A DNA stretch of 38,103 bases from IMG/VR virus record IMGVR_UViG_3300001242_000057, positions 1-38,103 of that record. One strand, given 5' to 3'. Below the pieces are notes generated by a model. That model did no database searches and was not told where the DNA came from. It was given only the letters and a program-made list of their open reading frames with translations. Source of the stretch: a virus. How positions within the stretch are numbered: position 1 is the first letter of the stretch; every line of letters starts with the position of its first letter. Positions 4,557 through 37,407 of the stretch are shown here, in pieces. The position numbers were made by a program, and so were the translations under genes.

Positions 4557-4731
4557 ATGTGGTTCTTGTGGCTATGACTTTGAAGAGGTTCTAAGCTTTA
4601 AAGAACATGACACATTCAAAAAAGAAGGTAAACTCTGTCCCAATTGTGGTAAATTAAATGTTAAGCAAAGAATGTCTAACCCAGTATTTAACACACATGG
4701 ACGAGGATTTGAAAAAACTGGAAGAGTATAA
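4537..4731 (+). CDS. FmdB-type zinc ribbon protein, 64 aa
   Basis: The true start is ATG 4537 (MPLYQFKCGSCGYDFEE), preceded by AAAGGAA at 4525-4531; a longer in-frame opening further upstream would lie inside the previous gene. The PLYQFKCGSCGYDFEE opening and the later CPNCGK pair give a four-cysteine zinc ribbon of the FmdB/CxxC_CxxC type. The length of 64 residues is typical of the family. The role is unknown; such proteins are presumed regulatory or nucleic-acid binding. It abuts the large terminase gene in a TAATG overlap and could assist the packaging machinery, which is inference from position only. Confidence 0.8.
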   Translation: MPLYQFKCGSCGYDFEEVLSFKEHDTFKKEGKLCPNCGKLNVKQRMSNPVFNTHGRGFEKTGRV

Positions 4732-6293
4732 TGGATAGATTAGCACGTATTCAAGAACTAATACAAATAGCAAAAGAAAAGTTAAGGCGGGACGTACTCC
4801 TCATGGGCAAGGTGGTATCTCCCGCTACTTGCGTTGTACAGACCCCCGATTTCCATCATGAAATCTCTGAATTATGGCACGCCGATGAACAGAGAGTTAA
4901 TATTATAGCTCCTCGTGGTCATGGAAAATCTTCTCTTATTAAGTTTATGATTCTCCATCACCTTATGTTCCACCCATCTAAAACCAAAGTAATCGTAATT
5001 GTTTCTAAGAATCAAGGTCATGCCAAAAAGATTCTTGATGACATTAAAACAATTCTAGAATACTCATCCAACTTTAAAAGGATATTTGGTTATTGGGGGA
5101 AAGAGGTCTCAGAGAGATGGTCTGATGAGGAAGTGGTGCTAAAGGACGGATCGCTACTCACTTGCAAGGGTGCAGACATGCAGATTGTGGGATTAAACTG
5201 GAGAAGCCAGAGACCTACCTTTGTTATCTATGATGATCCTCAAGATCACAAAAATACCTTAAACCAAGAACAAATGGAAAAAACATTAAAGACTCTTATG
5301 AAAGACGTAGAGCCTGGTGTCGATCCTAAACATGGTAAGATATGGTTAATTGGTACTCCACAAAGAGAGGGGTGTCTTGTCCTGAAAGTAAAAGAAATGC
5401 CAGGATGGAAAACCCTGCATTACGATGCTATAGTAGATGAAGACAAGAAAAAGGTACTATGGCCTGAATGGATTAGTTACCAAGCATTAATGGATAAATT
5501 AGAATCCTTTAAAGCCATCAATAGAGTTTCTATATTCTACTCTGAGTATAGATGTCAAATTATAGGTGATGAAGATCAATTATTTCTTCCTAAAGATTTT
5601 AGATACTGGGATGGAGAATTCCGTTTAGACAGCCGTAAGAAAGCTTATATAAAACTCACAGAGGTGGGTACAAACGAAAAAGATGGTCTAGATTGGATTA
5701 GGACATACAAAAAGGTAGATAGTCCCATCTGGAAGCCCGTAAACCTTTTTATGGGGGTTGACCCTGCGAGTAGCGTAAGCAACACGGCGGATTATTCTGC
5801 GATTATGGTTATAGCGGTAGACAAGGATAAAAACCTATATGTTCTAGATTTGTTTAGAAAACGAGTAAAACCAATGGAATTAGCTAGAACTATTATGGCG
5901 AAGTATAAACAATATTATCCAATGAAGACAAACATAGAAACTACAGGTTATCAAGAAATGTTGAGGGATTATTTGAAAAATGAATCAGATGTTTATATCC
6001 CAGGGTTAGAAGTTAAAAATCAACCAAGAAATGCAAAATCAAGACGTATTGAAACGTTGCAGCCATTCTTCTATAATAAACAGGTTTATTTCAAGAAAGA
6101 GATGATAAATTTAGAAGCATTGGAATCAGAACTGCAATTATATCCTAGAGTTCAAAATGATGATACTCTAGATGCGATGTTTTATGCAAAGAAAAATATA
6201 TATATACCATACCACACAGTTGAAGATATGGATAAACCTTCTGGTGGTTTTAAGTCACGATTCAGAAGCATAGGCGATTGGATGACGGCGTAG
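4731..6293 (+). CDS. terL: terminase large subunit (DNA packaging motor)
   Basis: The 520-residue protein has the two-domain architecture of large terminases. The ATPase has Walker A PRGHGKSSL (61-69), Walker B VIYDDP (165-170) and the coupling segment WLIGTPQREG (205-214). The RNase H-like nuclease has acidic residues at GVDPAS (D344), NIETTGYQE (E403) and DDTLDAMFY (D478, D481). It translocates DNA into the prohead at the portal and cuts it at the end of packaging. The start overlaps the previous stop (TAATG). Length is normal and all key residues are present. It belongs with the portal gene 490 bases downstream, although a separate promoter lies between them. Confidence 0.95.
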   Translation: MDRLARIQELIQIAKEKLRRDVLLMGKVVSPATCVVQTPDFHHEISELWHADEQRVNIIAPRGHGKSSLIKFMILHHLMFHPSKTKVIVIVSKNQGHAKKILDDIKTILEYSSNFKRIFGYWGKEVSERWSDEEVVLKDGSLLTCKGADMQIVGLNWRSQRPTFVIYDDPQDHKNTLNQEQMEKTLKTLMKDVEPGVDPKHGKIWLIGTPQREGCLVLKVKEMPGWKTLHYDAIVDEDKKKVLWPEWISYQALMDKLESFKAINRVSIFYSEYRCQIIGDEDQLFLPKDFRYWDGEFRLDSRKKAYIKLTEVGTNEKDGLDWIRTYKKVDSPIWKPVNLFMGVDPASSVSNTADYSAIMVIAVDKDKNLYVLDLFRKRVKPMELARTIMAKYKQYYPMKTNIETTGYQEMLRDYLKNESDVYIPGLEVKNQPRNAKSRRIETLQPFFYNKQVYFKKEMINLEALESELQLYPRVQNDDTLDAMFYAKKNIYIPYHTVEDMDKPSGGFKSRFRSIGDWMTA

Positions 6294-6781: not shown

Positions 6782-8905
6782 ATGGCAGAGAAATCTCTTG
6801 CTAAGCAAATAAGGGAAAAATTTCTAAAATATCAATCTTCAAGAGCAAAATGGGATGTTTCAGCTCAGGAGGATGAAGATTTTAAAAATGGCAATCAGTG
6901 GAGCGCTGCGGCAGTGGCTGAATTAACAGCTAGACGGCAATCCCCGATAGTCGTTAATGTTATTGCTCCCACGGTTGAACAGGGTGTAGCCTTGCTAACC
7001 ACAAACAAACCACGATTCACTTCCACAGGACGAGACGATTCAGATACCAAAACTGGTAGAATTTTTGCAGATATATTATCTTATGTATGGGAAATATCGG
7101 ATGGCAATAGAGAACTAAAAACAGCGATAGAGGACTATTATGTTCGAGGTTTGGGTTATCTTATGGCTTATTCTGATCCATACTCAGATTTTGGTAAAGG
7201 TGATGTAAAAATTTGTTCACTGGATAGTTTTGATGTTTACGTTGACCCCTCCTCTAAAAAAAGAAACTTCAGCGATGCTGATTCAATTATAGTTTCTCAG
7301 ATACTCACAAAGGCCGAATTAGAAAGAAGATATCCAGATTTTAAGCAATGGTCAGAAGCCAAAAGAGAAATGGATATCGATAATGGTCCAGGTTCGCTTC
7401 GTTATGACTTAATGGAAATTGGGAATGTTGCTAACGATTTAGACACTGACAAGTATCGTATTATCGATATGTATTCTAAGATAAAGAAAAAAGTTCATAG
7501 AGTTTTTGATCCTATGACTGTTTCTGAAAGAATTTTAAATGATGAACAATATCGAGAATATTTAGGACAGCCAGCCTTTATAGCTCAAGCTCAAGATGAG
7601 GTACGTGGCATATCAGACCCTAGAGAGGTTGCAGAAATGGGGGCTATTTATGATCGTACTGGCGGAACTTTCCACATCGACCAACAAGGTCAGATGATAC
7701 CAGGTCCAGGAGACCCGCTTACCACAACAACACTTAAACCAGTTTTAATCAACGATCTCTTAGAACAAGGCTTTTTAAAATATTTTTATGTTTGGGCAGA
7801 TAGAATTAAGAGAGTTATTACGATTGGTGATGTTCTATATTATGATGGTATTATCGATATAGAAGGCTACCCAATAGTACCATTAGTCAATAATCACAAA
7901 AGAAATCCATATCCATTTTCGGATGTTAGAAAAAGCAGAGGATTACAGGAGTATATTAATAAAACTAGAAGTTTAATTATAGCTCATGCGTCTTCATCTA
8001 CTAACGTTAAATTGTTAATGCCTAGAGGCGCAACCGATAGGGATATGCTAGAAGAACAGTGGGGAAGATCGGGTACTGCAGTAATAGAATTTGATGGAGA
8101 GATTGGTCAGCCTATTGTAGCTGGCCCAATAGCATTGCCTAATGAACTTTATAAAAATGAGGCAGATGCCAAAAGAGATATTGAACTGATTTTTGGTATT
8201 TGGAGTATGATGCATGGGGAACCAGGCTCGGCACCAGATAGTTTTAAAGGTACGGTAGCATTAGACGAAATGGGCCAAAGGCGTATTAAGTCAAAGAAAG
8301 ATGATATCGAAGCCTGTATAAATCAGTTATCGAAAGTTTGTGTAGAGTTAATTCAGCAAACATATACAGACGAAAAAGTAATTAGACTGCTTCGACCCAA
8401 TAACGCACCTAAAGAAGTTTCCATTAACCAAAATATTTATGATGATGTTACTGGAGCTTTATTGGGTAGAGTGAATGATATTACAATTGGCAAATATGAT
8501 GTAATTGTGGTGTCGGGTTCTATGCTTCCGTCTAATAGATGGGGCGTTTTGCAGCATTATTTAGATTTATATTCTGCAGGAATTATAGACCAGGTAGAAG
8601 TACTAAAGAAAACAGAAGTGGCGGATGTCGAAGGAGTTCTTCAAAGAACTGGACATCTACAGCAATTACAAGCAGCTATGGAAGAAGCTTCGCAACAAAT
8701 ACAAGAGTTACAAGGCGATTTACAAACCCTAACTCGCGAAAACCAACATTTGATGCAGAAAGCAGAATTAGAGAAATTCAAAGCTAAACTTGCAGAAGCG
8801 GGTTCAGCAATACAGCATGCCTCGGCATTATATAATGAGAGGCTAAACGATGACCTTGCAAAGCGCAAGGAATTCAAAAAGAACCAAGAAAACAAATCAA
8901 AATAG
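6782..8905 (+). CDS. portal protein, P22-like
   Basis: The 707-residue protein opens with a helical segment and the pattern DFKNGNQWSAAAVAELTARR then QSPIVVNVIAPTVEQ, characteristic of the P22-like portal family. It continues through a clip/wing region with D-Y-Y-V-R-G-L-G-Y, SFDVYVDPSSKKRNFSDAD and a crown-like C-terminal coiled coil (about 620-700, QLQAAMEEASQQIQELQGDL). Portals form the dodecameric ring at the capsid vertex that docks the terminase and the tail. Start ATG 6782 follows TATGGAGTAAT. It is first in the P2 operon and directly before the scaffold. The length matches this family (about 700). Confident. Confidence 0.9.
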   Translation: MAEKSLAKQIREKFLKYQSSRAKWDVSAQEDEDFKNGNQWSAAAVAELTARRQSPIVVNVIAPTVEQGVALLTTNKPRFTSTGRDDSDTKTGRIFADILSYVWEISDGNRELKTAIEDYYVRGLGYLMAYSDPYSDFGKGDVKICSLDSFDVYVDPSSKKRNFSDADSIIVSQILTKAELERRYPDFKQWSEAKREMDIDNGPGSLRYDLMEIGNVANDLDTDKYRIIDMYSKIKKKVHRVFDPMTVSERILNDEQYREYLGQPAFIAQAQDEVRGISDPREVAEMGAIYDRTGGTFHIDQQGQMIPGPGDPLTTTTLKPVLINDLLEQGFLKYFYVWADRIKRVITIGDVLYYDGIIDIEGYPIVPLVNNHKRNPYPFSDVRKSRGLQEYINKTRSLIIAHASSSTNVKLLMPRGATDRDMLEEQWGRSGTAVIEFDGEIGQPIVAGPIALPNELYKNEADAKRDIELIFGIWSMMHGEPGSAPDSFKGTVALDEMGQRRIKSKKDDIEACINQLSKVCVELIQQTYTDEKVIRLLRPNNAPKEVSINQNIYDDVTGALLGRVNDITIGKYDVIVVSGSMLPSNRWGVLQHYLDLYSAGIIDQVEVLKKTEVADVEGVLQRTGHLQQLQAAMEEASQQIQELQGDLQTLTRENQHLMQKAELEKFKAKLAEAGSAIQHASALYNERLNDDLAKRKEFKKNQENKSK

Positions 8906-9900: not shown

Positions 9901-11211
9901 ATGTCAGCAAAAAATCTTGGTGCTTTGGGCGTTCTGTTTAATGAACGTAGAGATTTCTTTATCTCCCCTCAGGTTACCAAAGAATTCTTCGCATCTGTAA
10001 CACCCTTATTCACATTAGCTATGGATCAGGGCGTTGACACTAATCTGAAAGACCCTTTGTTCAAGATGTTTTATCATCGTGACCCTTGGATTGATCAGTA
10101 TTTCACCGCTGGTGGCTCAGCTACTATCGGGGCAGACAATACAGCAGTTGCTGTTACTATCGCTGCTTCATCTATCGTTGGTCTTGCCAATGAGGGTGGG
10201 AATACTGCAGATAGTTCAATGAAAGGTTTACAGTTTGAAGTATGGGATTCTACTAAAACTACCAGAAAAGGCGTTGTGTTAGCAATTGATACCGTTAGCG
10301 GACAAGCAGCACAACTAACTTTCAAAAATCAATCTCCAAGTGCTATCTCTGTTGTTTCTGGTGACTATTTTATAGTTGCTGGTGATGCTAGAGGTGAGGG
10401 AACTGAAAGTCCTGAAGCATGGGCGGATGAATTGAGTGTGATCTTTGGTTCCACACAAATTTTTAAAACACCTATTGAAATAACAGGTACTTTATACGAA
10501 GCGGCTTTACGTGGTTATTCTGATGAATTAGCTAGACTTAGAGTTCAGAAACAGAAAGAGCATAAATTCCATATTGAAAATGCATTATGGAAAGGCGATT
10601 CTGTTATGGGTCTTGGACTTGGCTCAGGCGAAACATTAGATGATTCTGCTAGAACAGACGTTGATGGCAATAAAGTAAGAACCACAATGGGTATAATCAC
10701 TGCTATTAATAGATACGGCAATACATCCGGTGACGAACAGAATGTATTTACAATTAATAGAACTGATTACAATTATGGCAATTTACAAGAAGACCTTGCA
10801 AAAGTAATGCAGTGGGATTTTGAGAAAGGTATGCGTACAGCAATGTGCGGTATGAAAGCTAAAAACTATTTCTCGAATCTTGCTAACAACCAAGGTTTTG
10901 TTGGAAAGTCTGGATGGCAAGTAAAAGTAGGCGATATCAAGAAAGATACGCTTGGTTATGATTTTCAAATGCTAGAAACACCTGCTGGCATTTTGAAATT
11001 AATCTATGCCCCAGCTTTAAGAAAACAGTATGATGGACATATGATTGTCTTGTCTCCAGAAGACTTGAAAATTAAACAATATCGTCCTTCTAAATTTCAG
11101 GCTAATATTAAAACTGAAAATGCATATGACGGTGTTAAAGACCAATACTTTAGTGATTTAGGAATTGGTTTAACTAATATTGACAAATTTGCATTATTCA
11201 AAGTTGTATAA
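9901..11211 (+). CDS. major capsid protein, SU10/DUF5309-type HK97 fold
   Basis: The 436-residue protein lies immediately after the scaffold with AGGAG 6-8 bases upstream of ATG 9901. The segment TLYEAALRGYSDELARLRVQ followed by KQKEHKFHIENALWKG is the long spine-helix signature of the SU10/DUF5309 branch of HK97-fold capsid proteins. The part between about 85 and 165 (Ala/Val/Gly-rich with repeated strands) reads like an inserted surface domain. No N-terminal delta domain is evident, consistent with a separate scaffold. It should be the most abundant virion protein. The family is assigned by eye, the role with high confidence. Confidence 0.9.
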   Translation: MSAKNLGALGVLFNERRDFFISPQVTKEFFASVTPLFTLAMDQGVDTNLKDPLFKMFYHRDPWIDQYFTAGGSATIGADNTAVAVTIAASSIVGLANEGGNTADSSMKGLQFEVWDSTKTTRKGVVLAIDTVSGQAAQLTFKNQSPSAISVVSGDYFIVAGDARGEGTESPEAWADELSVIFGSTQIFKTPIEITGTLYEAALRGYSDELARLRVQKQKEHKFHIENALWKGDSVMGLGLGSGETLDDSARTDVDGNKVRTTMGIITAINRYGNTSGDEQNVFTINRTDYNYGNLQEDLAKVMQWDFEKGMRTAMCGMKAKNYFSNLANNQGFVGKSGWQVKVGDIKKDTLGYDFQMLETPAGILKLIYAPALRKQYDGHMIVLSPEDLKIKQYRPSKFQANIKTENAYDGVKDQYFSDLGIGLTNIDKFALFKVV

Positions 11212-23959: not shown

Positions 23960-26053
23960 ATGGCAGATATTTTTGGTAAAGTTAAGTTTGGTGATAATGA
24001 TTTTAATTATTATCGAATTTCTCCTAGCCCTATAGAAATAAATTTTATAACAAAAGACCCAAGAATATTATATACATCTAATATCCCAAGTCTTGGCTTA
24101 GCGTTTTCAATTACTAGTGGTGGTTTGAGTTATGTGTTAAATCCATTACCAGTTATCAGTAATTTAATAGAAGTTCCAAATCCATTATTAACATATACTA
24201 TTAACCCAACAAGCTTAACTGCGGGTTTTTCAGTGACGGAACCAACGTTATCTGGATTTGTTACGTCTCTTAATCCCAATGCTTTAACTATAAATTTAGC
24301 TCTAAATAATAACTATCAAAACACCACAATTAAACCAACCCCACTTACTATTTCTTTTGGTTTCCCTAGTGACACAATAGTTCATAAAATGCAATATACA
24401 ATGCAGTGGGAACAGGGTGGCCCTGGGTTTTTGTTAGACGATTTATTATATGCAAGAATGCAGGATTATGATAAAGATGGTAATTTAGTTGGTATGTTTG
24501 ATGTTAAAGCTAAGGTTATAGGTAATTCTGTAGAGGGATTTAATGATTTAGAATTAATAGAAGGCGCTACTAGTTGGCAAGAATTGGAAAAGAATAGAGA
24601 TGGTATTGAGTTTGTTAGAATTGGTAATTTAACAAATACAGCTAGACAGGGCTCTGTAATAATTACTGCAGATGGCATTGCCCCAGACGCTGCTGATTTA
24701 CCGCCCTATATAGATGTTAAAGACCAGATAGATAGTTTTGATGATTTCTTTTATGGGTTACCCAAGGTTAGACTAGGACGATTAGATGGAATTACAGACC
24801 CTGACTTTGGAGTTTTAAGCGGGTATGGATTGTATGGGCAAAACATATATTTAAAAGGCAATATATTAATATCTAATCCTAGCGCAATAGATGCAACAGA
24901 TTTAGCCAACGCTCTACATGATGCGAATGGCGAGATAATATTTAGTTTAACACCGACTGGCGCTGGTTTGTTTATAGGCGCTACTCACCTAGGTTATTAT
25001 GATACGTCTGCTTGGAAAACCTATATGGATAATTCTGGTAACTTTTATTTGGGTGGGACTAGTGGAAAATTACAATGGGTTTCGGGGACGAACACTTTAA
25101 CTATTAGCGGAAGTGTAACCATAGATAATCCGAGTACATTTAACGGTGGCGCACCCTTAGACGCAACTGACCTAAATAACGATGCTGGATGGGATGGAAC
25201 TGCGGCGACATTAAACAGCGGTGTTTCTTTAACTGGTGGGGGGATAACATTAGGCACTACTTCAAGAATAAATTCTGGACAAAGTGCATACGATACCGGG
25301 ACTGGTTTTTGGTTAAGTGCTGGTTCGGGAACTCCGGTTTTTTCTTTAGGTAATTCTGCTGGTAATAAGTTAACTTGGAATGGTACTGCGTTGGGTATTG
25401 TTGGTGCTATAACTGGTTCTACAATAACGGGCTCTTCTTTCCAAAGCATTATAGATGCAGATGGGTTAAGAACTAATATAAACCCAGAAGGTATAGAAAT
25501 AGCCAGTGGTTCTGTAGCTGCGTCAATAGAGCTTGCTCATCCTTCTGGTATATTAACGGTTACAGGATCAAGTGATGTAGATTTTAATATAGCTGGCAAC
25601 GTTACAACTTCAGTGTTTTCTGCAAGTGTTGGCTTTCGTCAAGGCACAATGACTGCGGGTAGAATATTAATGAGTAATGGCTTTAATTTTGTGTCAACAG
25701 CGTTTCCTGATTTAAGTGGCAGCTATGATGTGGCGGGGACAGCTTCTGGATTAATGTCAACACATAATTCAACCTATACTCACGCAAACATAGCAAATGG
25801 ACAAACAGCTTATGGATGGGGTAATCATGCATCTGCTGGATATATAACAGATGCTTATTCTGATTTAGTGGCAGATAGCAAAATAGGAACGGGAGCGACA
25901 CAAGTTGCTTATGGCAACCACACACACACGAGCGTTTATCATCCTTATGTAAGCGGTGGAACAAATTCAACTGTGAATATACCAGGCAATGATGGGTTGA
26001 CCTATTCGTTGACTTTTACTAATGGTGTATGCACGGCAATAGACGTAACTTAA
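23960..26053 (+). CDS. large tail fibre protein
   Basis: ATG 23960 has AGGAG at 23949-23953. The 697-residue protein begins with repeats of roughly 25-30 residues containing N-P-x-x-L-x-x-x-F/L (SLGLAFSITSGGLSY, NPTSLTAGFSVTEP, LNPNALTINLAL, KPTPLTISFGFP). A globular domain follows (QYTMQWEQGGPGFLLDDLLY), then fibre-like Thr/Gly/Ser repeats. Near the C-terminus is STYTHANIANGQTAYGWGNH followed by ASAGYIT, the WGNHA.AGY motif frequent in phage tail fibres. It is the last gene before promoter P3. It probably acts with the lectin-type protein in host adsorption. Structural role likely; receptor unknown. Confidence 0.75.
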   Translation: MADIFGKVKFGDNDFNYYRISPSPIEINFITKDPRILYTSNIPSLGLAFSITSGGLSYVLNPLPVISNLIEVPNPLLTYTINPTSLTAGFSVTEPTLSGFVTSLNPNALTINLALNNNYQNTTIKPTPLTISFGFPSDTIVHKMQYTMQWEQGGPGFLLDDLLYARMQDYDKDGNLVGMFDVKAKVIGNSVEGFNDLELIEGATSWQELEKNRDGIEFVRIGNLTNTARQGSVIITADGIAPDAADLPPYIDVKDQIDSFDDFFYGLPKVRLGRLDGITDPDFGVLSGYGLYGQNIYLKGNILISNPSAIDATDLANALHDANGEIIFSLTPTGAGLFIGATHLGYYDTSAWKTYMDNSGNFYLGGTSGKLQWVSGTNTLTISGSVTIDNPSTFNGGAPLDATDLNNDAGWDGTAATLNSGVSLTGGGITLGTTSRINSGQSAYDTGTGFWLSAGSGTPVFSLGNSAGNKLTWNGTALGIVGAITGSTITGSSFQSIIDADGLRTNINPEGIEIASGSVAASIELAHPSGILTVTGSSDVDFNIAGNVTTSVFSASVGFRQGTMTAGRILMSNGFNFVSTAFPDLSGSYDVAGTASGLMSTHNSTYTHANIANGQTAYGWGNHASAGYITDAYSDLVADSKIGTGATQVAYGNHTHTSVYHPYVSGGTNSTVNIPGNDGLTYSLTFTNGVCTAIDVT

Positions 26054-26122: not shown

Positions 26123-26142
26123 CATATATAATGGAGAATTAT

Positions 26143-26766
26143 ATGGCTTTATTCGATTTCTTGGGTTTCAATAACCCAAACTCAGAATTTAAAGGGTTAG
26201 CAGAAGGCTTTAGTAATAGAGCTAAACAATTTGAAAATCTTGATTCTGATTTTTATAAACAAAACTTAAAATCTTTTGCAGATTACTTAGGCAGACAAAT
26301 CAGCAAATCTACACCCACCTTAAATACTTTGTTGTCAGCAGCAAGAGCTTCTGGTGTTTCTGGGACTAGTTCGAGCACCATAGCAAATAGACAAAGAATA
26401 GAGAGTGAGGGGCGTAATAGAGAAGCTGTCGCTGGTGGAGTTAACCAATTTTATACTGGGTTAGCTCAAACAGGATTGGGGTATGCGTCTAGTTTAAATA
26501 ATAGTGCAACAGAACTATACGGGCAATACGCTACTGGCCAAAGACAAGCACAGGGTAATCAAGTGGGGTTTGCTAATTCTATTTTAAGTATGGGTGCAAC
26601 ACTAGGAGCCTCGGCATTAGTCCCAAAACCAGCACCAACTAATTTTAATTATAATCCTTATTCTAGTTCTGGTAATAGTGGTTTTGGTCAGCCAGGAAGT
26701 TTTGGAGGACAACCCAATTCGTTTGATCCTGGACAACGTAAATTTACTTTACCTAAATTTTATTAA
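26143..26766 (+). CDS. probable internal virion (ejection) protein, 207 aa
   Basis: ATG 26143 has GGAG at 26133-26136 and is preferred over ATG 26131, which would sit at the transcript start. The product opens MALFDFLGFNNPNSEFKGL, continues with an Ala/Gly/Ser-rich, weakly hydrophobic helical centre (LLSAARASGVSGTSSSTIAN, LAQTGLGYASSLNN, SILSMGATLGASALVP) and a Gly/Asn/Pro/Phe-rich disordered tail. This composition is common to small ejection proteins of short-tailed phages that insert in the host envelope. Position directly upstream of the large virion proteins agrees. No homologue is named; the role is inferred. Confidence 0.65.
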   Translation: MALFDFLGFNNPNSEFKGLAEGFSNRAKQFENLDSDFYKQNLKSFADYLGRQISKSTPTLNTLLSAARASGVSGTSSSTIANRQRIESEGRNREAVAGGVNQFYTGLAQTGLGYASSLNNSATELYGQYATGQRQAQGNQVGFANSILSMGATLGASALVPKPAPTNFNYNPYSSSGNSGFGQPGSFGGQPNSFDPGQRKFTLPKFY

Positions 26767-26778
26767 TAGGAGTTACAA

Positions 26779-27855
26779 GTGGCAGAATATAATTTTGGCG
26801 ATGTATTCGCTAGAGTTTTAGAAACAGAAAAAGACAGAGTTTCTAGAGAGAAGGAAGCTGAAGTAGCTAGACAAGTTCAACTCCTACAATTAAAAACTCA
26901 AGTAAAAGAGAATTCTTTAGGTAGAGAACTCCAAACCAAGCTACAACAAGAGAGTTTGGCTTCTAATAAGGAACTAGCTCAGATTAGAGAAATAGGGGAT
27001 GATAAGAGACTAGAAAAAAGCATAGAATCTAATAAAGATTTAACTCAGATGCAAATCGATTCTGCTCAAAGTATAGCCGATAAAAATCTAGCAGCTCAAG
27101 AAACTAGATACAAAATACAAGATGCTCAACATAAAAAAGCAATGGATTTGCAATACTTAACCCTTAGAGCTAACTTGTACAGAGAAGGGCTGAGTTTAAG
27201 TGATGATGGTAAAAAGATTATTTTTCCAAGTGGCGATAGCAAAGACGTAGATTTAGCTCAATTTGCAGAATTAACTCAATTTGATGAAGAGAATTTTGAA
27301 TCACAATTTGAAAGAGTCGATACTAAAATTAAAAAAGAATTGGATATACCAAATACTTTTTTAGATAAAGTGGGTTCGGTAACAAAATCGAAGGATGTTG
27401 TTACTAATTTTGCCAATTTAATAGAGGGTGATAAAAAGCAAACAAAAGCATATGGCGAAAAAATATATGAATATGCAAATAAAGAAGTTGAAAAGGCCGC
27501 TAAAACACTAGAATCAATTAATGGCATTATGGGTAAAACCCCAACGGAAGATCAGCAGAAAGTAGCAATGATGTTACTAGGCGCTTATGGCGCAAAGTAT
27601 ATGGATTCTCAAGAAGTAAGAAACGAAGAGGGAGAAGTAGTACAGGATGCCCAAAACCGTTATCTTACCAATCTTGTTCAAAAATTGAATCAAGCTGGTG
27701 TTAATAGAGAAGCAATTAAAAAGCTAGAAAATAAGATTAACACAACTGCGCTATTATATAACACAACAGCAATAAGAACTGGGCTTAATACACAACCAGC
27801 CAATAGTCCTTATCCGTTTTTTAAACAACCAGGAACCATTAACGCAACAAGGTAA
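26779..27855 (+). CDS. coiled-coil ejection protein, 358 aa
   Basis: GTG 26779 has AGGAG at 26768-26772, which fixes the start. The first 125 or so residues form a long charged coiled coil (EKDRVSREKEAEVARQVQLL, LQTKLQQESLASNKELAQIR, ADKNLAAQETRYKIQDAQHK). The rest is helical, with an acidic patch (FDEENFESQFERVDTKIKKE) and a C-terminal Asn/Pro tail. No enzyme motif or membrane helix is visible. It sits between the small ejection protein and the giant polymerase-like protein, as in phages where three adjacent proteins are packaged and ejected together. The role is inferred from context. Confidence 0.65.
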   Translation: MAEYNFGDVFARVLETEKDRVSREKEAEVARQVQLLQLKTQVKENSLGRELQTKLQQESLASNKELAQIREIGDDKRLEKSIESNKDLTQMQIDSAQSIADKNLAAQETRYKIQDAQHKKAMDLQYLTLRANLYREGLSLSDDGKKIIFPSGDSKDVDLAQFAELTQFDEENFESQFERVDTKIKKELDIPNTFLDKVGSVTKSKDVVTNFANLIEGDKKQTKAYGEKIYEYANKEVEKAAKTLESINGIMGKTPTEDQQKVAMMLLGAYGAKYMDSQEVRNEEGEVVQDAQNRYLTNLVQKLNQAGVNREAIKKLENKINTTALLYNTTAIRTGLNTQPANSPYPFFKQPGTINATR

Positions 27856-27857
27856 TT

Positions 27858-30800
27858 ATGGCAAAAATAGGTACAATTGATTTTAATAATAATCAAGTTT
27901 CTAATATAGCCAACGAGTTCGCAAACTTTGCGAGCCTAAAGAGCACAGAGTCTGCACAAGATTTTAGTGCTCTTAGTGTATTAGGAGCTCTTGCTAAGGG
28001 TTATGTGCAAGGCTTCACTACATTTGCTATAGGAGAACCAGTTCAAAACCCTGTTGAAGCGGTAGCGCATTCGATAGGTTCGTTAGCTGGTTTTATTGGG
28101 TGGGCTCCTGGAGCTAGCAGCTTAGGCGGAGCTTTAACCAAGGGTCTTGGTAAAACAGTAAGTATGGCGTTTAAGGGTGAAAAGGCATTAGCTTTAACAC
28201 AAGCTACGGCAAAAGCTGGTTTGTTTTTACCATCAATACCAATGGGAGCTGCTAATTTAATATTCAAGGGCGCAGAAGGACTTGGGGTAAAAACAGCCAT
28301 CCAATCTGCTGAGAAATATCTATTATCCCAAGGGATAAGCAAGGAAGCTATAAACATAGGGGGCCACGCCATTCATCAAGGCGCCCACATGGGTACAGCT
28401 ATGGCTGTAAGTTCTTGGCAAGATGGTGTAGACGCAATGTTTTCTTCATTCACCTATGGTTTTACATTTGCTTCTGGTTCTGCTATACTAGGACAATATT
28501 TGCCTACGGCTGGGAGAGCTATAGAAGCACCTAGACATGTTCAACTACTACAGGATATTCAAGACCCTCGTGGTATAGCTAGAATTATGTCCTCTGCTAT
28601 GTTTTCAGCTATTCCATCTTATGTATCGGACGCACCTTTTGAATTACAGGTTTATGAGTTATTGTTAGGCGCTTATTTCGGCGCAATAGAAATGCCATTA
28701 TCCGAAAGAAGAGCATTAGGATTTTTAAGATATGCCCCTATGAAAGCACATGGTGGTGTAGAGATGCATAAAGCAAGCCAAGATATTTCTTTGCATGGCT
28801 TTAGTGACCCAACCACAAAGATTGGTGCTAGATATGCAGCCCTTAAAAGAGTTGACCCACAAGCAGCAGAAATCGTAGCGCAACAGATAGAGTTAAAAGG
28901 TTTAAAGTGGATAGGAGATGCAGAGTCTGGTGTATCTTTGGCTGGTATAGAGGTGGCTCAAAGCATAGAGAATGTCTTAAAAACCAAAGAAGGCGCTATC
29001 CCAGAAGAAACTATGCGTTCTATGTTGTCTACAGAACTGTATAATTCAGCAGTAAAGCTAGCTCAAGAGCGTACTGGACTAGAAGCTAATGTAGAAGACC
29101 CAGAATGGAATGTAGCTCTACATAGAGCCTCTATGGACGTATTAAAGCAATCAGCAAAAGACATAGATGATTATAGTAGAACCGTAGAATACAGAATCAA
29201 AGACATTAAGGAACATGTGAAATTCATGGATCAGTTTAAAACTAATACTGATACGCGTGAAATAGCTGTTTTAGAAGAAGAATTATCTCAAGACAAAGAC
29301 TATCCTCGTTCTTTAATACCAACATCTAAAAAATTAGCAAGAACTATATTTAATACAGAAAAAAAGAAAGGTACAGAAATAAAAGTTGAAGACTTTTTAA
29401 AAACTCAAATTAAAGTGAAAGATGTTTTTAAAAAACATATAGCAGACAAAGATAACCCAAAAGCTTTTGATAATTTGATTAAAGATATTCAATCAGAGCT
29501 TGGTTTAGAGTTGGTAGAGGGTAAGGGCTCTTTATGGAGAGATGTAAGGAAATCTTGGAATTGGTCTACCAGATTAGAGCCAATGCTACAAAAAAGTCTT
29601 CATAGATCGGGTGGAGAACTCATCACTCAAATTCAGAACGAATTAGATATGTACGGTCATAACGTTACTAAATTTGTTGAGCGTCCGTTCTTATGGGAAA
29701 AGCTGGGTAGGGGCGTTTTTAATATTAAAAATAGTAGAACAGTTAAGGTTACAGAAAACGAAGCTACTAGTGAAAAATTATTTGAAACAGAGGAAGTGAA
29801 ACCTTTTGATGACCCCGACTTTAATATTGTAGAATTAATGTTAACTTTAGACCAAAACAATGAAACGTTATTGTTTGCTTCTAAAGATTCTGGTGTTTTA
29901 ATAGGGATGCCTTATTTAGATAATGCCAAAGACCCCGTGGCAGTTAAAGAATATATTGAAGCAATAAGAGAAGAAATTCCCACTTTTGATGCCGAGGTTA
30001 AGCTATTGCAAGAAGACTTTATGAATGAGTTTAAGGCACTAAAAGGCAAAAAGTTTACAGAAAAACAAGCTCATGCAGCATTCTGGAAAAGCTTAATGAA
30101 TACAATGATGGCTAGAGAAAAACTTGAAGGTGTAGACATTATTACTATTATGCAAAATCCAGACAAATTTATGTTGTCAAAAAACACTCCTGCTGCAGAA
30201 TGGAACAAACGTACTTCATTGCTTAACAATGGATTTTTAAGATTAGACCCCACCTACATGTCTAGAGTTGAGGGTGCTGAGAATGGTTTAAATACCGTCA
30301 TTATTAATGCATTGAATAAGAACGGCATGGATATGGTAGAGGGCTCCCCAGACCTGACGGACTGGGTGTTGGATAAGAGTGGAGAATATATTAATCGTAA
30401 AACAGAAACTCATGTTGATGGTGTTATTTATTTAAGAGATGATGTTTTTGATATGTTGGTGTTACAGGGTGGCTTAGAGGGTGGTACGGGAGCTCAGAAA
30501 GGAACCCTATTACACTCAGAGCCAAAACAAGGGTTACTGATTGGTAAGTTTGCTTATCATAAAGCTGGCGCTAAGATTAGTGAGTCTATGAAATCTAAAA
30601 ACATTCATACAATTATTAACAGTACAGCAGCTAAACAAACTGGTTTGCGAATAAAACATGATGCTCAATGGTCTAATAATAAATTAAAATTCTATAATGA
30701 GGGTAAAAGAAAAACTGTTACTCCAACAATATACACTATACCTCATGATTCTTTTACTTACACAGAGGGTGGTGAGCATTTAGATAGAGCTTTAGTTCCA

Positions 30801-33800
30801 CAAAAATTAGCTTCACAGTTTATGAGTGGGATTGACTCTCAAAGATTTCCAGAAACAACTAAATGGCTTAATGAAATATCGAACACTAATTTCCGAGGTT
30901 CCGCTACTCACGAAGATTTATTTAGTAAATGGGCTCAAGGCGATACTAGAGTAGACCCAAATAAAATAGACGTAGAACAATTAGGGATACAAACATTATT
31001 AGATATATTTACATCTGGCAAGAAAGACATAATGTGGAAAAGAGTCTTTGAAACTTATATTAAAGACTATGATGATATAATAGATGGCGATACTCCCTGG
31101 GATGATCCCGAAGCATTTCTCTTAAAAGAGACGACACAAAAGAGGGCTGCTGCAGATAGAATTTTAGATTTAGCAGAAGCTTCGCCTGCGTTGTTGGCTA
31201 GTCCAATGGTGCAAAAGTATGTCGAAACTATCTTTAAAAGTGCTTTAACAAAAAGAATTTCTCGTCCTAAGCTTACTGGTTCTGCAAGCTCTATAATGAA
31301 TCCTTATAGGTGGGATTTAATTTCTAAATTGAAAGAAAGGGGTGGTTTGCAGGAAGGCGAGATGTTGTTGGGTGACGCTTACAAAGATTATACCAATTTC
31401 CCTTGGAGAGGGCGTAGTCCAGAAACTAATGAGGTTAGATTAGAGGATGCTTATAATGAATATTTGGCATTAAAAGAAAACCCTAATAAAAACAAAGAGT
31501 CTGAGAAATTATTAAAACAAATGGAAGAGGATATAACTTTTTTGGTAGAAAGAGTACCTACAGATTCACCGTCTGGGGTTAGACCAATTAAGTTTATTGG
31601 CTTCAGCGATATTGCTGGAAGCGGGGTTGTATTGCATCCAGAGGATATGATAAATCTTGGTGGAGCTGACCTAGATATAGATAAAGCTTATTTATATAAT
31701 GGTATGCCAGGTTCTGTTAAAAAAGAATTTGAAAAAACTAAATACGAATGGTACGATTTTTTTGATCCATCTACAAAGAAAAAAATAACAGAAGAAGAAT
31801 ATCGAAGCAATCCCAAAAAATTTATTAAAATATTAAGAGATTCTAAACCTACAGATTCGCCTTTTCTAGCAGAATCTAAAGCGACTTGGAAGAATACAAA
31901 ATTAAGCGCTTTCTCTCCATTGCACCTTAACCAAATAGGACGAATGGCATATGAGGGAAATAGACTATTAGGTCCTGCTATATCTATGGCGAAGAAATTG
32001 AATGGTTTATTAGAAGCCCAGACAAAAGAGTTAAGTGTATCAGATGTAAATGCTTTTAGAGAACTAAAGCGTCAAATGATTAATTATGGTGCAGATGCTG
32101 CTAATGGTACTGAATTAGTTTCTCATGAAAGAGCATTAGAAATTCTAACGTCTAGTTTATTTAAGAAAAAACAGATTAAAGAAAAACAAAAATCTGGTGA
32201 ACAGCCAGTATTAAGAGACGAAACTGATGCCGAACTACTGAAAAGAGTTAAGGGCAATAAACTATATAAACAAATATCAAAATTAGAGGCATTTAACCGC
32301 GGTAAAGATTTTGAAGGCAAATTATATAATTTTGGTGATTTTGTTAGTATCGCACAAGAAGCTAATAGATATTTAGATAAAGAATCACTAAAGTTTAATA
32401 GCGCTTATTATCGCAACTTCTTGAGAATGAGTGAAATTAACCTGTCTAGGATAGGTGAAGTCCCATTTATGGATGCTTCTGCTCCAGAAAAGTTAAATGA
32501 AATTAGTAGTCAAATCAGACTATCAGAAACCTTTTTAAGATTAATAGGAAGAAGCGCTGAAGGTATTAGGTTTTATAATAACTTTAGAAACGCAAAAGGC
32601 AGCCCTTATGCTAGCGCACATTCCAAATATGATAAGATGATTATTGCTAATGAACTAACGGCTCAATCTGGGTTAGACGCTGCGAACGCTGTAAATATTT
32701 TATTCCAAGCCCCAAAAGACAAGTTGGGCAAGCTTGATTTAGACTTAAAGGTTACGGATGATTTATTGCGGAGAGCCGATGAACTAAAGAAAGAATTTAG
32801 TACTCTGTTAATCACAAAAGATAAAGCAAAAAGAAGTGGTGAAGATGTCAATACGTCTGCATTAAAGTTGCAGATAGATAAGAAAATCGAGCAAATCACA
32901 AATGGATTACCTCAAGCTTACAGAAAACTTTTTCATGCGTATATGTTAAGCTCTTTGTCTTATCAAAAAGACTCCCTACCGGATTTTGTTAAGAAATATA
33001 CTGATGCTATTAACAAAAAATACGATCAGCAAGCGGCCATATTTCAAAGCAGGATTGATAAACGTAATGCAGAGGGGAAAGCAACAAATAAACTCAAGGT
33101 TAAGTTAGACCAGGTAGATGTTGCTAGACAGGCCGAACTAAAAACAGCCACTGCAGAGGCTAAAAGGGAATGGTGGAGCACAAATCAAAATACTTGGGTA
33201 TATGAATTAAATAGTATTGATCCAAGCGTTGTAAGAGATCAATTGTTTATATACGAAGATATTATACAAAAAACAAATACCCATATTCCTGATGACTATA
33301 TTACACAGCTTGATCACTATTTAGATACGCCCGCTATTACCACTGGCGTGGAACAACCAAGTGTAGAAAAAGCAAACTTAAGGTTTCTTAATTTTGTCCA
33401 AGATTATGCGGAAAGAGGAAAAACAGTTGATAAGAGCAAGGTTGACCCAAAGATTTTAGCACAACTAAAAACTGCAGGCGAAACTATTGCTAAGTACTAT
33501 AAGAAACACCCCGAAAAAATCAAAGACGTAGAGGCCATGTTCGCCAAAGAGTCTCAATTGCAAAAAGCTTTATTGGGTTTTGAGGGCGGGAACACCTTAA
33601 GGTTAGCCACACCCGAACAGGTTATAGAGTTTGCTAGAATTCTTCAGTTAAAGTTAAATAATGCTGGGAAAAACTTTAAACCTGAGTGGTATCACTATTT
33701 CTGGAGACCAGAGACTATAGGCGAGAAAATGAGAACCTATGAAGATTCTGGAGAAACACCAGAAGAAATACCAATCCAAGTTTCGCGTGGTGTTACTGGT

Positions 33801-36689
33801 TTTGGGGAAGTTAAACAATCTATGTCAACATTCCAAAAAATTAATTCTATTTGGAATTGGGGCGAAAAAGCATACGAAGGAGCTTTCCGCTCTACAGAAT
33901 ACAAGTATAAAACGCACCCTTTATTAATAGGGTTAAGAGATTTAGATAAAAACAAAGATGAAATAGGCAAGGAGTTATGGGATTTAGCCGTTCGATATAG
34001 AGAGCGTGATTTAGCAAAAGTTAAGGGGGCTAAAGGCCATAGAACAGAAACATACCAAGAATACTGGAAAAGAGTAGAGCCAAGATTTAAGGAATTAATG
34101 GGGTCTTCCGAAACAGTTTTGATTCCAGGCATCAGCTCTAAACCTATCGCTATTCGCGAAGTATTTGATAAAATTGTGGAATTTCAAAACACTACAATGA
34201 AAGAGATACTTCAAACAAAGATGGTAAACAAAATAGCCGAAGAAGCTTTTTTCGCAAAAGTGACTGACGAGAACGGTAACGTTGATACGGATAAAGCTTT
34301 TGAAATATTGGCAGGTGAATTATCTGCTAATAAATTTATCTTTAGAGGCGTTAATTTTATAAATAAGTTGATGCATCACGAGATGTTAAATAAAATCAAA
34401 ATTCGTGGTGATACATTTATGAAATATCTCTATAAAAAAACTAGCGGCTTTGATGTTGAGGGCGGTAGCGTCAGCGAGTTTCTGTCTGATAGTGGGTTTA
34501 AGGATTTTTGGAACAACTTATTTAAAGGCACTACTCCAGACAACTTTAGCAGAAGCGACAATGAAGTGTTGGATATATTCCTGAAAAAATATAATGATTT
34601 TGTAGAGTCTGGCGAGGATTTCTCTTTGGTGTTAGAGGAGATACAAAACCCCGCAACTCGCTCAAGATTGTTATCCCAACTAAAAGCGTCAAGATTTAAT
34701 GAGAGCGGTTGGATGGATTACAAAGATTTTGGAGTTCAAGACTGGTTCCATAAATATTACTATCCACACAATACGTTCTTAGAAAAGGCAACAAAGAAAT
34801 ATCTTCTTGACAAAATATCTAAAATGGTGATGGGAAAAGATGAAATAGGCGGGACAGAGAATGATATAGCTCTTGTTAGAAGGCAAGTAGAGGGACAGAC
34901 AGAAAATCCAGAAGATCGTGCAAACAGCGTAATTAGACATCTTGAAGACATAATGGATTCAAAGGGAATAGAAGCAAAACACATAGAAAACTTTACTCAA
35001 CACTTATCTAGTTCTTTAGCAAGAGATACAGACGATCCTCTTCCTGGGTGGTCTACAGACAGAGATGTTTTGATTAAATATGAAAACCAGATGGATAGAT
35101 TCTATTATTCTTATCTGGCTTCGGGTATCAGTCGACACCAGATCAAAAAACTTAATCAAACAAAAGCTCTTGGTGACTTTACAGAGTCCTGGGGAAGATT
35201 CTTTTCTTTATACAACAGAGATCAACTTGGCCACGCCTCTAAATTTCCAGATGCTTGGCTTAATGATCCAAATCTTCAAATTAGACACAACCCCTACTAT
35301 GCATTAACTGATGATTATTGGATTAGAAGAGCAGATAAGGTTGGTAAGAAATTCTTTAATGGCAAGAAGTTTTATAAAGATATTAAAGAGGCTGGTTTAG
35401 AGGACAAGTTTACTCCTGAGCTAAAGACTCGTATTCAGAATGACCCTAAAGTTAAAGAGTTACTAGATACTATTTACGCGAATAGCGTGGATAAACGATT
35501 AACTTGGTGGTCTCAACTTGAGGGTAAGTTTGAGTTGTTAACACTTTTGTCTCATCCCAAAACCATGATAAACAACTTCTTTTCTGGCGACATGAATACA
35601 TTGAGTCAGACGGGAATGAGACATTGGAAAAAAACTTTTGACCAAAACTACATGATTAATAATTTATTCCCAGGAGCTAAAAACAAAGCTGATATCGATG
35701 CTATTATAGAAAAGAATGGTGGTGTTGAGGCGATGTTCTTTAGTGAGTTTGGATTAAACAAATTATTTAATACTGGGGTTTATAATAAAGTTTTTAAACA
35801 GGTTATGGCCGTAATTAAGAAAGAAGGCTATAATGAAAAGAAAATAACTGATGTGTTAAAAGAAAATGGCTTAGGCGAAGCATTTCTTAATACTGCTGGT
35901 TATTTTATGAGAACCTCAGAGGTTCAATTAAGAAGACGCTCATGGCTAGCTCATTATAATCAAGCTAGAGAAGTGCTGAGTGTGAATGGGATGCATTTAG
36001 AACCAGAGCATCCTTGGTTAGTGCAATGGGCAAACAAAGGTGTTGGAGCAACACAATTCTTATATAATAACGCTAATCGCCCAGCATTTGTTAGAACTAA
36101 TCTAGGGAAGATGTTTGGTAGATTCCAGTTATGGGCGTGGAACTCTTTGTATTTTAGAAGAGAGGTTCATAAAATGGCTTATGCTTCTGGCTATAAACCA
36201 GGGACTGCTGAATTCTCTAGGTTAAGAAACTTAATGACTGCTGATTTATTGGTGTTGGCATTGGGAGCAGCTTTACCATATTCTATGTTTGATTCTACAG
36301 TAGCTCCTCCATTAGGGTATGTACAGGATTTATCGGCTTGGATGTTTGGTGACCAAGAAGAGAGAGATAAGGCGTTTTTTGGAGCCTTACCTTGGCCAGC
36401 TAATATAGTTGGGATAGCAACTCCTCCGATATCTAGGTTCGCTTTTGCGCCCATATCGTTATTGCTTAATGGGAATCTTGATGCAACGGCTAGAGTTCTT
36501 ATGACGGCAATACCGTTTGGTAGATTGGGGACATCAACATACAGAACGTTTGAATCTCCTATAATGGCAATTGATAATTTTACGGGATTACCGTTTGTTA
36601 AAACCGCTTCGTTCTTTAAAAAACAATATAAAAACAAAGTCCCATACAATATCAATCCATTACTAAGCTCCCTTTCTAAGACCGAATAA
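27858..36689 (+). CDS. giant virion protein with crAss-like two-barrel RNA polymerase motif
   Basis: This 2943-residue protein (about 330 kDa) starts at ATG 27858 after AAGG. Residues 1232-1235 are RVPT and 1271-1275 are DLDID, with VVLHPEDMINLGGADLDIDK in between. This lines up with bacterial RNA polymerase beta-prime (RAPT, then HP, then NADFDGD about 35 residues on) and the DFDID signature of crAss-like virion polymerases. About 400 residues earlier, DGVIYL (from 854), AQKGTLL (K881) and IGKFAYHK (K897) fit the Lys-bearing second barrel. The N-terminus (about 40-230) and C-terminus (about 2760-2900) have Gly/Ala-rich hydrophobic segments suited to membrane passage. It would transcribe early phage DNA after ejection. 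Motif evidence is strong; activity is inferred. Confidence 0.82.
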   Translation: MAKIGTIDFNNNQVSNIANEFANFASLKSTESAQDFSALSVLGALAKGYVQGFTTFAIGEPVQNPVEAVAHSIGSLAGFIGWAPGASSLGGALTKGLGKTVSMAFKGEKALALTQATAKAGLFLPSIPMGAANLIFKGAEGLGVKTAIQSAEKYLLSQGISKEAINIGGHAIHQGAHMGTAMAVSSWQDGVDAMFSSFTYGFTFASGSAILGQYLPTAGRAIEAPRHVQLLQDIQDPRGIARIMSSAMFSAIPSYVSDAPFELQVYELLLGAYFGAIEMPLSERRALGFLRYAPMKAHGGVEMHKASQDISLHGFSDPTTKIGARYAALKRVDPQAAEIVAQQIELKGLKWIGDAESGVSLAGIEVAQSIENVLKTKEGAIPEETMRSMLSTELYNSAVKLAQERTGLEANVEDPEWNVALHRASMDVLKQSAKDIDDYSRTVEYRIKDIKEHVKFMDQFKTNTDTREIAVLEEELSQDKDYPRSLIPTSKKLARTIFNTEKKKGTEIKVEDFLKTQIKVKDVFKKHIADKDNPKAFDNLIKDIQSELGLELVEGKGSLWRDVRKSWNWSTRLEPMLQKSLHRSGGELITQIQNELDMYGHNVTKFVERPFLWEKLGRGVFNIKNSRTVKVTENEATSEKLFETEEVKPFDDPDFNIVELMLTLDQNNETLLFASKDSGVLIGMPYLDNAKDPVAVKEYIEAIREEIPTFDAEVKLLQEDFMNEFKALKGKKFTEKQAHAAFWKSLMNTMMAREKLEGVDIITIMQNPDKFMLSKNTPAAEWNKRTSLLNNGFLRLDPTYMSRVEGAENGLNTVIINALNKNGMDMVEGSPDLTDWVLDKSGEYINRKTETHVDGVIYLRDDVFDMLVLQGGLEGGTGAQKGTLLHSEPKQGLLIGKFAYHKAGAKISESMKSKNIHTIINSTAAKQTGLRIKHDAQWSNNKLKFYNEGKRKTVTPTIYTIPHDSFTYTEGGEHLDRALVPQKLASQFMSGIDSQRFPETTKWLNEISNTNFRGSATHEDLFSKWAQGDTRVDPNKIDVEQLGIQTLLDIFTSGKKDIMWKRVFETYIKDYDDIIDGDTPWDDPEAFLLKETTQKRAAADRILDLAEASPALLASPMVQKYVETIFKSALTKRISRPKLTGSASSIMNPYRWDLISKLKERGGLQEGEMLLGDAYKDYTNFPWRGRSPETNEVRLEDAYNEYLALKENPNKNKESEKLLKQMEEDITFLVERVPTDSPSGVRPIKFIGFSDIAGSGVVLHPEDMINLGGADLDIDKAYLYNGMPGSVKKEFEKTKYEWYDFFDPSTKKKITEEEYRSNPKKFIKILRDSKPTDSPFLAESKATWKNTKLSAFSPLHLNQIGRMAYEGNRLLGPAISMAKKLNGLLEAQTKELSVSDVNAFRELKRQMINYGADAANGTELVSHERALEILTSSLFKKKQIKEKQKSGEQPVLRDETDAELLKRVKGNKLYKQISKLEAFNRGKDFEGKLYNFGDFVSIAQEANRYLDKESLKFNSAYYRNFLRMSEINLSRIGEVPFMDASAPEKLNEISSQIRLSETFLRLIGRSAEGIRFYNNFRNAKGSPYASAHSKYDKMIIANELTAQSGLDAANAVNILFQAPKDKLGKLDLDLKVTDDLLRRADELKKEFSTLLITKDKAKRSGEDVNTSALKLQIDKKIEQITNGLPQAYRKLFHAYMLSSLSYQKDSLPDFVKKYTDAINKKYDQQAAIFQSRIDKRNAEGKATNKLKVKLDQVDVARQAELKTATAEAKREWWSTNQNTWVYELNSIDPSVVRDQLFIYEDIIQKTNTHIPDDYITQLDHYLDTPAITTGVEQPSVEKANLRFLNFVQDYAERGKTVDKSKVDPKILAQLKTAGETIAKYYKKHPEKIKDVEAMFAKESQLQKALLGFEGGNTLRLATPEQVIEFARILQLKLNNAGKNFKPEWYHYFWRPETIGEKMRTYEDSGETPEEIPIQVSRGVTGFGEVKQSMSTFQKINSIWNWGEKAYEGAFRSTEYKYKTHPLLIGLRDLDKNKDEIGKELWDLAVRYRERDLAKVKGAKGHRTETYQEYWKRVEPRFKELMGSSETVLIPGISSKPIAIREVFDKIVEFQNTTMKEILQTKMVNKIAEEAFFAKVTDENGNVDTDKAFEILAGELSANKFIFRGVNFINKLMHHEMLNKIKIRGDTFMKYLYKKTSGFDVEGGSVSEFLSDSGFKDFWNNLFKGTTPDNFSRSDNEVLDIFLKKYNDFVESGEDFSLVLEEIQNPATRSRLLSQLKASRFNESGWMDYKDFGVQDWFHKYYYPHNTFLEKATKKYLLDKISKMVMGKDEIGGTENDIALVRRQVEGQTENPEDRANSVIRHLEDIMDSKGIEAKHIENFTQHLSSSLARDTDDPLPGWSTDRDVLIKYENQMDRFYYSYLASGISRHQIKKLNQTKALGDFTESWGRFFSLYNRDQLGHASKFPDAWLNDPNLQIRHNPYYALTDDYWIRRADKVGKKFFNGKKFYKDIKEAGLEDKFTPELKTRIQNDPKVKELLDTIYANSVDKRLTWWSQLEGKFELLTLLSHPKTMINNFFSGDMNTLSQTGMRHWKKTFDQNYMINNLFPGAKNKADIDAIIEKNGGVEAMFFSEFGLNKLFNTGVYNKVFKQVMAVIKKEGYNEKKITDVLKENGLGEAFLNTAGYFMRTSEVQLRRRSWLAHYNQAREVLSVNGMHLEPEHPWLVQWANKGVGATQFLYNNANRPAFVRTNLGKMFGRFQLWAWNSLYFRREVHKMAYASGYKPGTAEFSRLRNLMTADLLVLALGAALPYSMFDSTVAPPLGYVQDLSAWMFGDQEERDKAFFGALPWPANIVGIATPPISRFAFAPISLLLNGNLDATARVLMTAIPFGRLGTSTYRTFESPIMAIDNFTGLPFVKTASFFKKQYKNKVPYNINPLLSSLSKTE

Positions 36690-37013: not shown

Positions 37014-37407
37014 CGGATTTCCATATAATAATTTCTATTCTTGAGTTGTCTTTATCGTAACCTCCAAAATCAGAAGTTGTTTTTTTGATATATTGATGTG
37101 AATCATCCTCTATACAGCCATAATGTACCAAAGCATCACAGAAAAATTTATTAACTATAGCACAAATATTGGCTGTATCAAAAACTTTCTTACCTCCCTG
37201 AATTGCATTAGCATATAAAATAAATTCAATATCTATTGGAGTAGGCAAAACTAATCCTTCTAATTGATCTTTCATTAGTTCGTTATAGATTTGTTTTATT
37301 TTATTATTTTTAATCCAATGTAAATTTCGGTAAGTATTCAAATTTAAATATACCGTTTCATCTTTTTTTCTTTTCTTTGGTAAAATAATTTTTATGGGAC
37401 TAACCAT
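36964..37407 (-). CDS. RusA-like Holliday junction resolvase
   Basis: The start is the minus-strand ATG at 37407 (MVSPIKIILP), which overlaps the upstream stop by 8 bases; the longer reading would run into the ATP-grasp gene. The 147-residue protein has the RusA-family pattern: FDTANICAIVNKFFCDALVH with D77, N80, K87 and D91, then YGCIEDD (D101, D102), and an alternating strand end NSRIEIIIW. RusA enzymes cut branched DNA and would help resolve junctions before packaging. The family's catalytic acids are present, though DTAN differs slightly from the DVDN of E. coli RusA. Function inferred from motifs. Confidence 0.72.
   Translation of the reverse strand: MVSPIKIILPKKRKKDETVYLNLNTYRNLHWIKNNKIKQIYNELMKDQLEGLVLPTPIDIEFILYANAIQGGKKVFDTANICAIVNKFFCDALVHYGCIEDDSHQYIKKTTSDFGGYDKDNSRIEIIIWKSDEIKNKKEKFCIAKNT

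Follow-up and report, generated by a model that had tools for sequence, protein, structure and literature searches.

A giant cysteine-free phage protein proposed to be a virion RNA polymerase of the two-barrel type

The giant gene and the phage that carries it

The window analysed here, which spans an entire IMG/VR virus record (38,103 bases), carries an ATG-initiated open reading frame encoding 2,943 amino acids without any internal stop (Table 1). As no end repeats were reported for this record, it may be a fragment. The first-pass annotation took the product for an ejected protein with a two-barrel RNA polymerase active site, and the elements on which this idea was based are all present, namely RVPT at residues 1232-1235, Asp at 1271, 1273 and 1275 in GGADLDIDK, and the lysines K881 and K897. 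Its description of large hydrophobic terminal domains needs to be softened: residues 1-300 and ~2700-2943 are indeed Gly/Ala-rich and mildly hydrophobic, but only 2792-2815 reach a transmembrane-like score. The sole D.D.D of the giant protein is that at 1271-1275. DxDxD by itself is not significant (0.65 expected; present in 892 of 2,000 shuffles), whereas R[VI]P[ST] and DxDxD at a fixed distance have a joint expectation of ~1.4e-5. The R-to-D spacing is 39 residues in both the giant protein and gp66, the RNA polymerase of phage phi14:2, and 35 in E. coli beta-prime.

The head genes of the window belong to families distinct from those of phi14:2 (Crass_capsid PF23898/phrog_11589, phrog_6547 and phrog_6681), as had been proposed from the sequence alone. 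Judged by capsid, portal and terminase, the window does not qualify as crAss-like (Crassvirales), and the window phage and its relatives, with a P22-type portal and an SU10-type capsid, are not crAss-like phages. The SU10-type capsid was found in seven, and the phrog_156 portal in eight, of 11 records (the window plus relatives); the remaining records are mostly short fragments. The closest relative is syntenic in the head module, with identities of 44% for the terminase, 50% for the portal and 41% for the capsid. An RNase H-like exonuclease gene (PF13482; phrog_403, DNA polymerase exonuclease subunit) lies at 3308-4240, shortly before the terminase gene.

Table 1. Features of the window, and integrase genes in related records
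Feature	Position	Strand	Basis or remark
Terminase large subunit	4731..6293	+	PF17289, phrog_38
Portal protein, matches P22-type portals	6782..8905	+	phrog_156
Major capsid protein, SU10 type	9901..11211	+	PF17236, phrog_1328
697-aa protein, same block as the giant gene	23960..26053	+	kept in two relatives
211-aa cysteine-free protein, candidate co-ejected partner	26131..26766	+	also precedes the giant gene in a relative
358-aa cysteine-free protein, candidate co-ejected partner	26779..27855	+	immediately precedes the giant gene
Giant protein gene (2,943 aa, cysteine-free); proposed virion (ejected) two-barrel RNA polymerase	27858..36689	+	homologues
N-terminal module, residues 35-290, Gly/Ala-rich	27960..28727	+	conserved block, composition
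DPBB-B (beta-like barrel), residues 783-975	30204..30782	+	K784-R785, D854-G855, K881, K897, K926 invariant; alignment; model; 6vr4 top
K897, proposed catalytic Lys 1	30546..30548	+	aligned with gp66 K1027
K926, proposed catalytic Lys 2 (replacing K881)	30633..30635	+	aligned with gp66 K1065
DPBB-A (beta-prime-like barrel) region, residues 1137-1304	31266..31769	+	model, fold matches
RVPT, residues 1232-1235	31551..31562	+	motif in sequence, family conservation
DLDID metal-binding triad (proposed), D1271/D1273/D1275	31668..31682	+	motif, invariant in homologues
Candidate bridge helix, residues 1354-1386, invariant G1372	31917..32015	+	low confidence; pLDDT ~35-57
C-terminal module, residues 2300-2920, function unknown	34755..36617	+	most conserved part of the family
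Tyrosine integrase genes	L170:7611-8546, L172:8505-9413, L173:8130-9026	same as giant gene	PF00589

Giant homologues and their conserved residues

As a direct query, the giant protein found no Pfam, significant PHROG, PDB sequence, GenBank-phage or first-pass IMG/VR relative, and relatives were instead reached by searching for back-translated patterns of the active-site codons. The pattern GADxDIDK occurred in at least 120 IMG/VR stretches, and ~100 among the 120 matches listed were large open reading frames with R.P. at the same distance as in the window. The DFDIDK proteins belong to the crAss-like polymerase family: their profile is matched by phi14:2 gp66 at 1.4e-101, and a search with one of these proteins gave GenBank crAss-like genes that carry an RNA polymerase annotation (3e-11). 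In a separate record (L055, IMGVR_UViG_3300025133_000168), a 3,763-aa open frame has RVPS 40, not 37, residues before GADFDIDK, and possibly represents a third lineage of the polymerase family.

A narrower pattern, GGAD[FL]DID, identified the subfamily of the window protein itself. One locus (L122) encodes a full-length homologue of 2,925 aa with 29-33% identity over the whole length, and eleven further giant loci were found in IMG/VR (L142, L147, L149, L150, L151, L153, L155, L157, L158, L162 and L164), some of which are near-identical contigs. All eleven except L158 were recovered by phmmer with the window protein at E 1e-22 or better, and complete members of the subfamily range from 2,807 to 3,244 aa. 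Nine long members share K784, R785, D854, G855, R1232, P1234, G1256, H1260, M1264, GGADLDID at 1268-1275, G1372 and D1413 as well as many C-terminal residues, and K881, K897, K926 and G929 are invariant in the alignment of barrel B. We conclude that the RVPT/DLDID motif is not a product of chance, as (i) it is invariant in the homologues and (ii) R.P. lies at the same distance in the ~100 of 120 listed, pattern-picked IMG/VR loci mentioned above.

In a comparison between profiles, the window subfamily matched the DFDID family with a probability of 85.5 (E 5.7e-6). With the columns of the GADxDIDK pattern used for selection masked in both profiles, the probability was 29 (E 6e-4), against 0.1 for the reversed control. 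DPBB-B alone gave no significant local match to the crAss-like profile (probability 1.7); its global alignment, which starts by pairing NKR with KR, reached a probability of 39 (E 5e-5). The GenBank phage collection contained no match. An absence of relatives from public protein data cannot be claimed, since unnamed UniProt viral entries match the core model (e.g., A0A516LW39 at E 6.7e-22), and members of the family may accordingly have been deposited without being recognised.

Pairwise matches within the family form three blocks, at ~35-290, ~780-1380 (the polymerase core) and ~2300-2920. Profiles of the N- and C-terminal modules matched only within the family and found nothing in the crAss-like loci examined, and the C-terminal module had no match among GenBank phages. 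We propose, by analogy with the layout of the N4 virion RNA polymerase (vRNAP), that the N-terminal module is a membrane or channel part; as the end modules match nothing known, any channel role for them remains a guess.

Most of the chain is not polymerase, and conservation is higher in the C-terminal module than in the core, so that one might suspect an ejection or tape-measure-like structural protein whose polymerase domain is degenerate and dead, serving in DNA binding or scaffolding. Nevertheless, core sequences sharing only ~15-35% identity have few invariant residues, and these include the Asp triad, R1232, P1234 and the Lys pair, which suggests selection for catalysis, and we regard a dead domain as very unlikely.

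Predicted fold of the two-barrel core

An AlphaFold2 model of residues 698-1698, built from an 11-row alignment, had a mean pLDDT of 53; values of ~70-88 were reached over much of the barrel strands. In a Foldseek search of the PDB with this model, phi14:2 gp66 (6vr4_A) ranked top (E 1.8e-6, probability 1.00), followed by QDE-1 in second and third place and then by phage AR9 and plastid or bacterial beta-prime. VIA-align placed the model on 6vr4_A with Z 10.6 and an rmsd of 9.6 over 345 residues, a value so high that the relative placing of the parts must be considered poor. Residues 1137-1304 alone fitted chains of the Rpb1/beta-prime type with Z 8.8-9.9, mostly at 2.4-3.0 A. When the Lys barrel was searched apart from the Asp barrel, gp66 was again the best match: the separate model of residues 765-1035 (pLDDT 65, pTM 0.62) hit 6vr4_A at E 1.5e-4, against E 0.22 for the runner-up, and resembled gp66 892-1106 with Z 9.8, followed by maize and Arabidopsis RDR2 and QDE-1 (657-785) with Z 5-6. 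The matched ranges run co-linearly, 773 pairing with 878 and KR 784 with KR 893. All of these models are of low to middling confidence and rest on alignments of 10-11 sequences. Still, both barrels were predicted where the first reading of the sequence had put them.

In the two-barrel superfamily, the second barrel supplies two basic residues (PMC7824862). By its model matches to gp66 and QDE-1 and the invariant K897 and K926, the giant protein has this feature. It also has the other feature, an Asp barrel with DxDxD, as judged by the invariant triad and the fit to beta-prime/Rpb1. With regard to a T7-type (palm) RNA polymerase, sequence comparison with Pfam, PHROG and the PDB gave nothing significant of any kind, and the fold matches are to two-barrel enzymes instead. 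A single-chain two-barrel RNA polymerase core is therefore well supported at the level of sequence and model, as motif spacing, conserved residues and 6vr4 as the best PDB match for both barrel regions point to it. Chance or convergence in a short motif would be an easy objection, since a protein this large will often contain DxDxD by chance, but it can hardly be upheld against a joint expectation of ~1e-5, the conservation across the family and two separate fold searches that were both led by the phi14:2 polymerase.

The likely catalytic lysines are K897 and K926. This assignment is inferred without distances in space; it is based on the landmarks KR - DG - GK - AKQ - RVPT - DLDID of the giant protein, the order of which corresponds to KR - DAQ - LKYS - VKVG - RIPN - DFDID in gp66. 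Since the local profile alignment of DPBB-B is not significant, the pairing of K897 with K1027 and of K926 with K1065 rests mainly on the fold match and this order. K881 and K897 had originally been put forward as the pair; K897 is kept, but the alignment to the crAss-like family makes K926 the more likely partner, K881 being invariant in the subfamily without a clear counterpart in gp66 or the DFDID family. After the Asp barrel, where two-barrel polymerases have a bridge helix and a trigger loop, a long helix is predicted at 1354-1386, and this helix and the invariant G1372 and D1413 fall in a stretch of low pLDDT.

The giant protein would be of the same catalytic kind as gp66. Both are single chains with the Lys barrel before the Asp barrel, D(L/F)DID preceded by R.P. 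at the same distance, and an identical order of the K-K and KR landmarks; both genes lie beside tail or cargo genes, and gp66 is nearly cysteine-free (two in 2,180 residues). They differ in that sequence identity is very low, so that the relationship is detected only by profile or fold, in that the giant protein has GGADLDID with an invariant HP..M-type lead where gp66 has GSDFDID, and in the N- and C-terminal modules and the portal, terminase and capsid families described above. P23-45 gp96, fused to the tail tape measure, likewise joins a two-barrel RNA polymerase to a giant virion protein, but it is the tape measure of a siphovirus with the polymerase in the N-terminal part and no clamp, whereas the polymerase of the giant protein is central and its phage has a P22-type portal. 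QDE-1/RDR (by fold search) and YonO (by literature) share the fold of both barrels; unlike the giant protein, they have no ejection-type modules fused and are RNA-templated or intracellular. In the literature searched, phi14:2 gp66 and P23-45 gp96 are the solved single-chain two-barrel virion polymerases. What is new here is the subfamily, the phage lineage, the fusion modules and the probable lysogeny in some members.

Packaging, ejection and lysogeny

The giant protein contains no cysteine in 2,943 residues, where ~18 would be expected at the rate of its neighbours (P ~1e-8), and every homologue of the subfamily is likewise free of cysteine. Most of the giant DFDIDK frames (L002-L121) have 0-3 cysteines in 1,800-4,860 residues, and cysteine avoidance is thus common to the crAss-like polymerases too. 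In the N4-like phages LUZ7 and LIT1/PEV2, the virion RNA polymerases also lack cysteine, which the authors of that study link to passage through tail and periplasm (PMC3715699). N4 vRNAP consists of N-terminal, RNA polymerase and C-terminal domains and is accompanied by two smaller ejection proteins (PMC12633501). The giant protein shares with the vRNAPs of N4-like phages (Schitoviridae gp50) a length of ~3,000-3,500 aa, an N-terminal module, a central polymerase, a large C-terminal domain, the lack of cysteine and, as proposed for the 211- and 358-aa proteins, small ejection proteins encoded alongside; the catalytic domain of N4 is of the T7 (palm) type, however, which makes the two-barrel protein an analogue rather than a member. 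phi14:2 gp66 is a virion component (PMC7886860), and a mass spectrometry note in its database record supports this. Packaging and ejection of the giant protein are inferred, in the absence of proteomics, from the gene position, the N4-like three-part architecture and the zero cysteine.

A two-barrel RNA polymerase could also be made late in infection, without being packaged, and merely be encoded beside structural genes, like SP-beta YonO or P23-45 gp64. Intracellular single-chain enzymes of this kind have precedents, one of them in a prophage (YonO, PMC5467207), and proteomic data exist for no member of the family; but the YonO/gp64-type enzymes are compact, whereas the giant protein is extended at its two ends by ~2,000 residues, no member has a cysteine, and the giant gene is the last of the tail block in the window and in the relatives with enough sequence. 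A non-packaged enzyme appears improbable to us on these grounds. We consider it highly probable that the giant protein is a single-chain two-barrel DNA-dependent RNA polymerase, packaged in a short-tailed phage and ejected into a Bacteroidota host, where it transcribes the first genes. The enzyme would be carried in the capsid and leave through the tail into the Gram-negative cell ahead of or with the DNA; its N- and C-terminal modules may form or bind a channel in the envelope, and the catalytic core in the middle (~780-1400) would then transcribe the first phage genes, with D1271, D1273 and D1275 binding metal ions and K897 and K926 of the other barrel stabilising the reaction. Catalysis, early transcription and the host of the window phage are inferred, as are the roles of the end modules. 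The two-barrel core occurs in phages with unrelated head genes and is flanked, in an arrangement like that of N4, by end modules of the ejection type; the giant ejected polymerase therefore seems to have evolved on the basis of two catalytic folds that are unrelated to each other. The family-wide absence of cysteine offers a simple sequence clue to such ejected giants.

crAss-like phages have been described as strictly lytic (PMC10136315). In three relatives (L170, L172 and L173), a tyrosine integrase of 298-311 aa is encoded directly 3' of the giant gene, and in another (G003) such a gene lies near the contig end; no integrase was found in the window, a linear fragment, or in six other records. 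The closest relative occupies the end of a contig of 142,620 bases from a Bacteroidetes MAG, and its IMG/VR record (50,573 bases) has the same sequence, with the cut at contig position 92073. This cut is ~270 bases from a tRNA-Ser, with a gene for a TonB-plug outer membrane protein on the other side. No attachment-site repeat of at least 14 bases was found at the tRNA-Ser, and the contig ends inside the element. Among 395 Bacteroidota genomes, one further genome carries a decayed polymerase piece (R.PAPSLSG...GGADLDIDSAY; L179, L180/L181; G363:C1:2471628-2472365), which comprises barrel A only, in a 264-aa open frame followed by stops on a 2.8-Mb contig, and is likely a relic prophage. Because of the integrases directly downstream and the relative inside a Bacteroidota contig, at least some members of the family are probably temperate; this lysogeny is inferred and does not cover the lifestyle of the window phage.

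With integrase genes lying next to the polymerase gene, it becomes testable how lysogeny can be reconciled with a virion polymerase. That temperate short-tailed Bacteroidota phages package their own two-barrel RNA polymerase, giving one genome two start programmes, is an attractive idea to which we would give somewhat less than an even chance. If this is the case, the injected enzyme would begin to transcribe an incoming genome immediately, an induced prophage, having no injected enzyme present, must begin with the host RNA polymerase, and a protein delivered by the virion would influence the choice between lysis and lysogeny. In the open-licence literature searched, a two-barrel virion polymerase is not described for any temperate phage, an absence that is weak evidence.

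Three further observations concern neighbouring genes. At the right end of the window (37400-38101, minus strand), opposite to the structural genes, lies a RimK-like ATP-grasp gene (phrog_2599, ribosomal protein S6 glutaminyl transferase), which is either a phage moron or host flank. The portal gene of one relative (G006:C1:39872-41002) reads through a TGA, which may reflect sequencing error, decay or recoding. In the relative from the Bacteroidetes MAG contig, a protease gene of the Clostripain family (Peptidase_C11) follows downstream of the giant gene (JAHISV010000010.1 138358-139497; L136:18358-19497).
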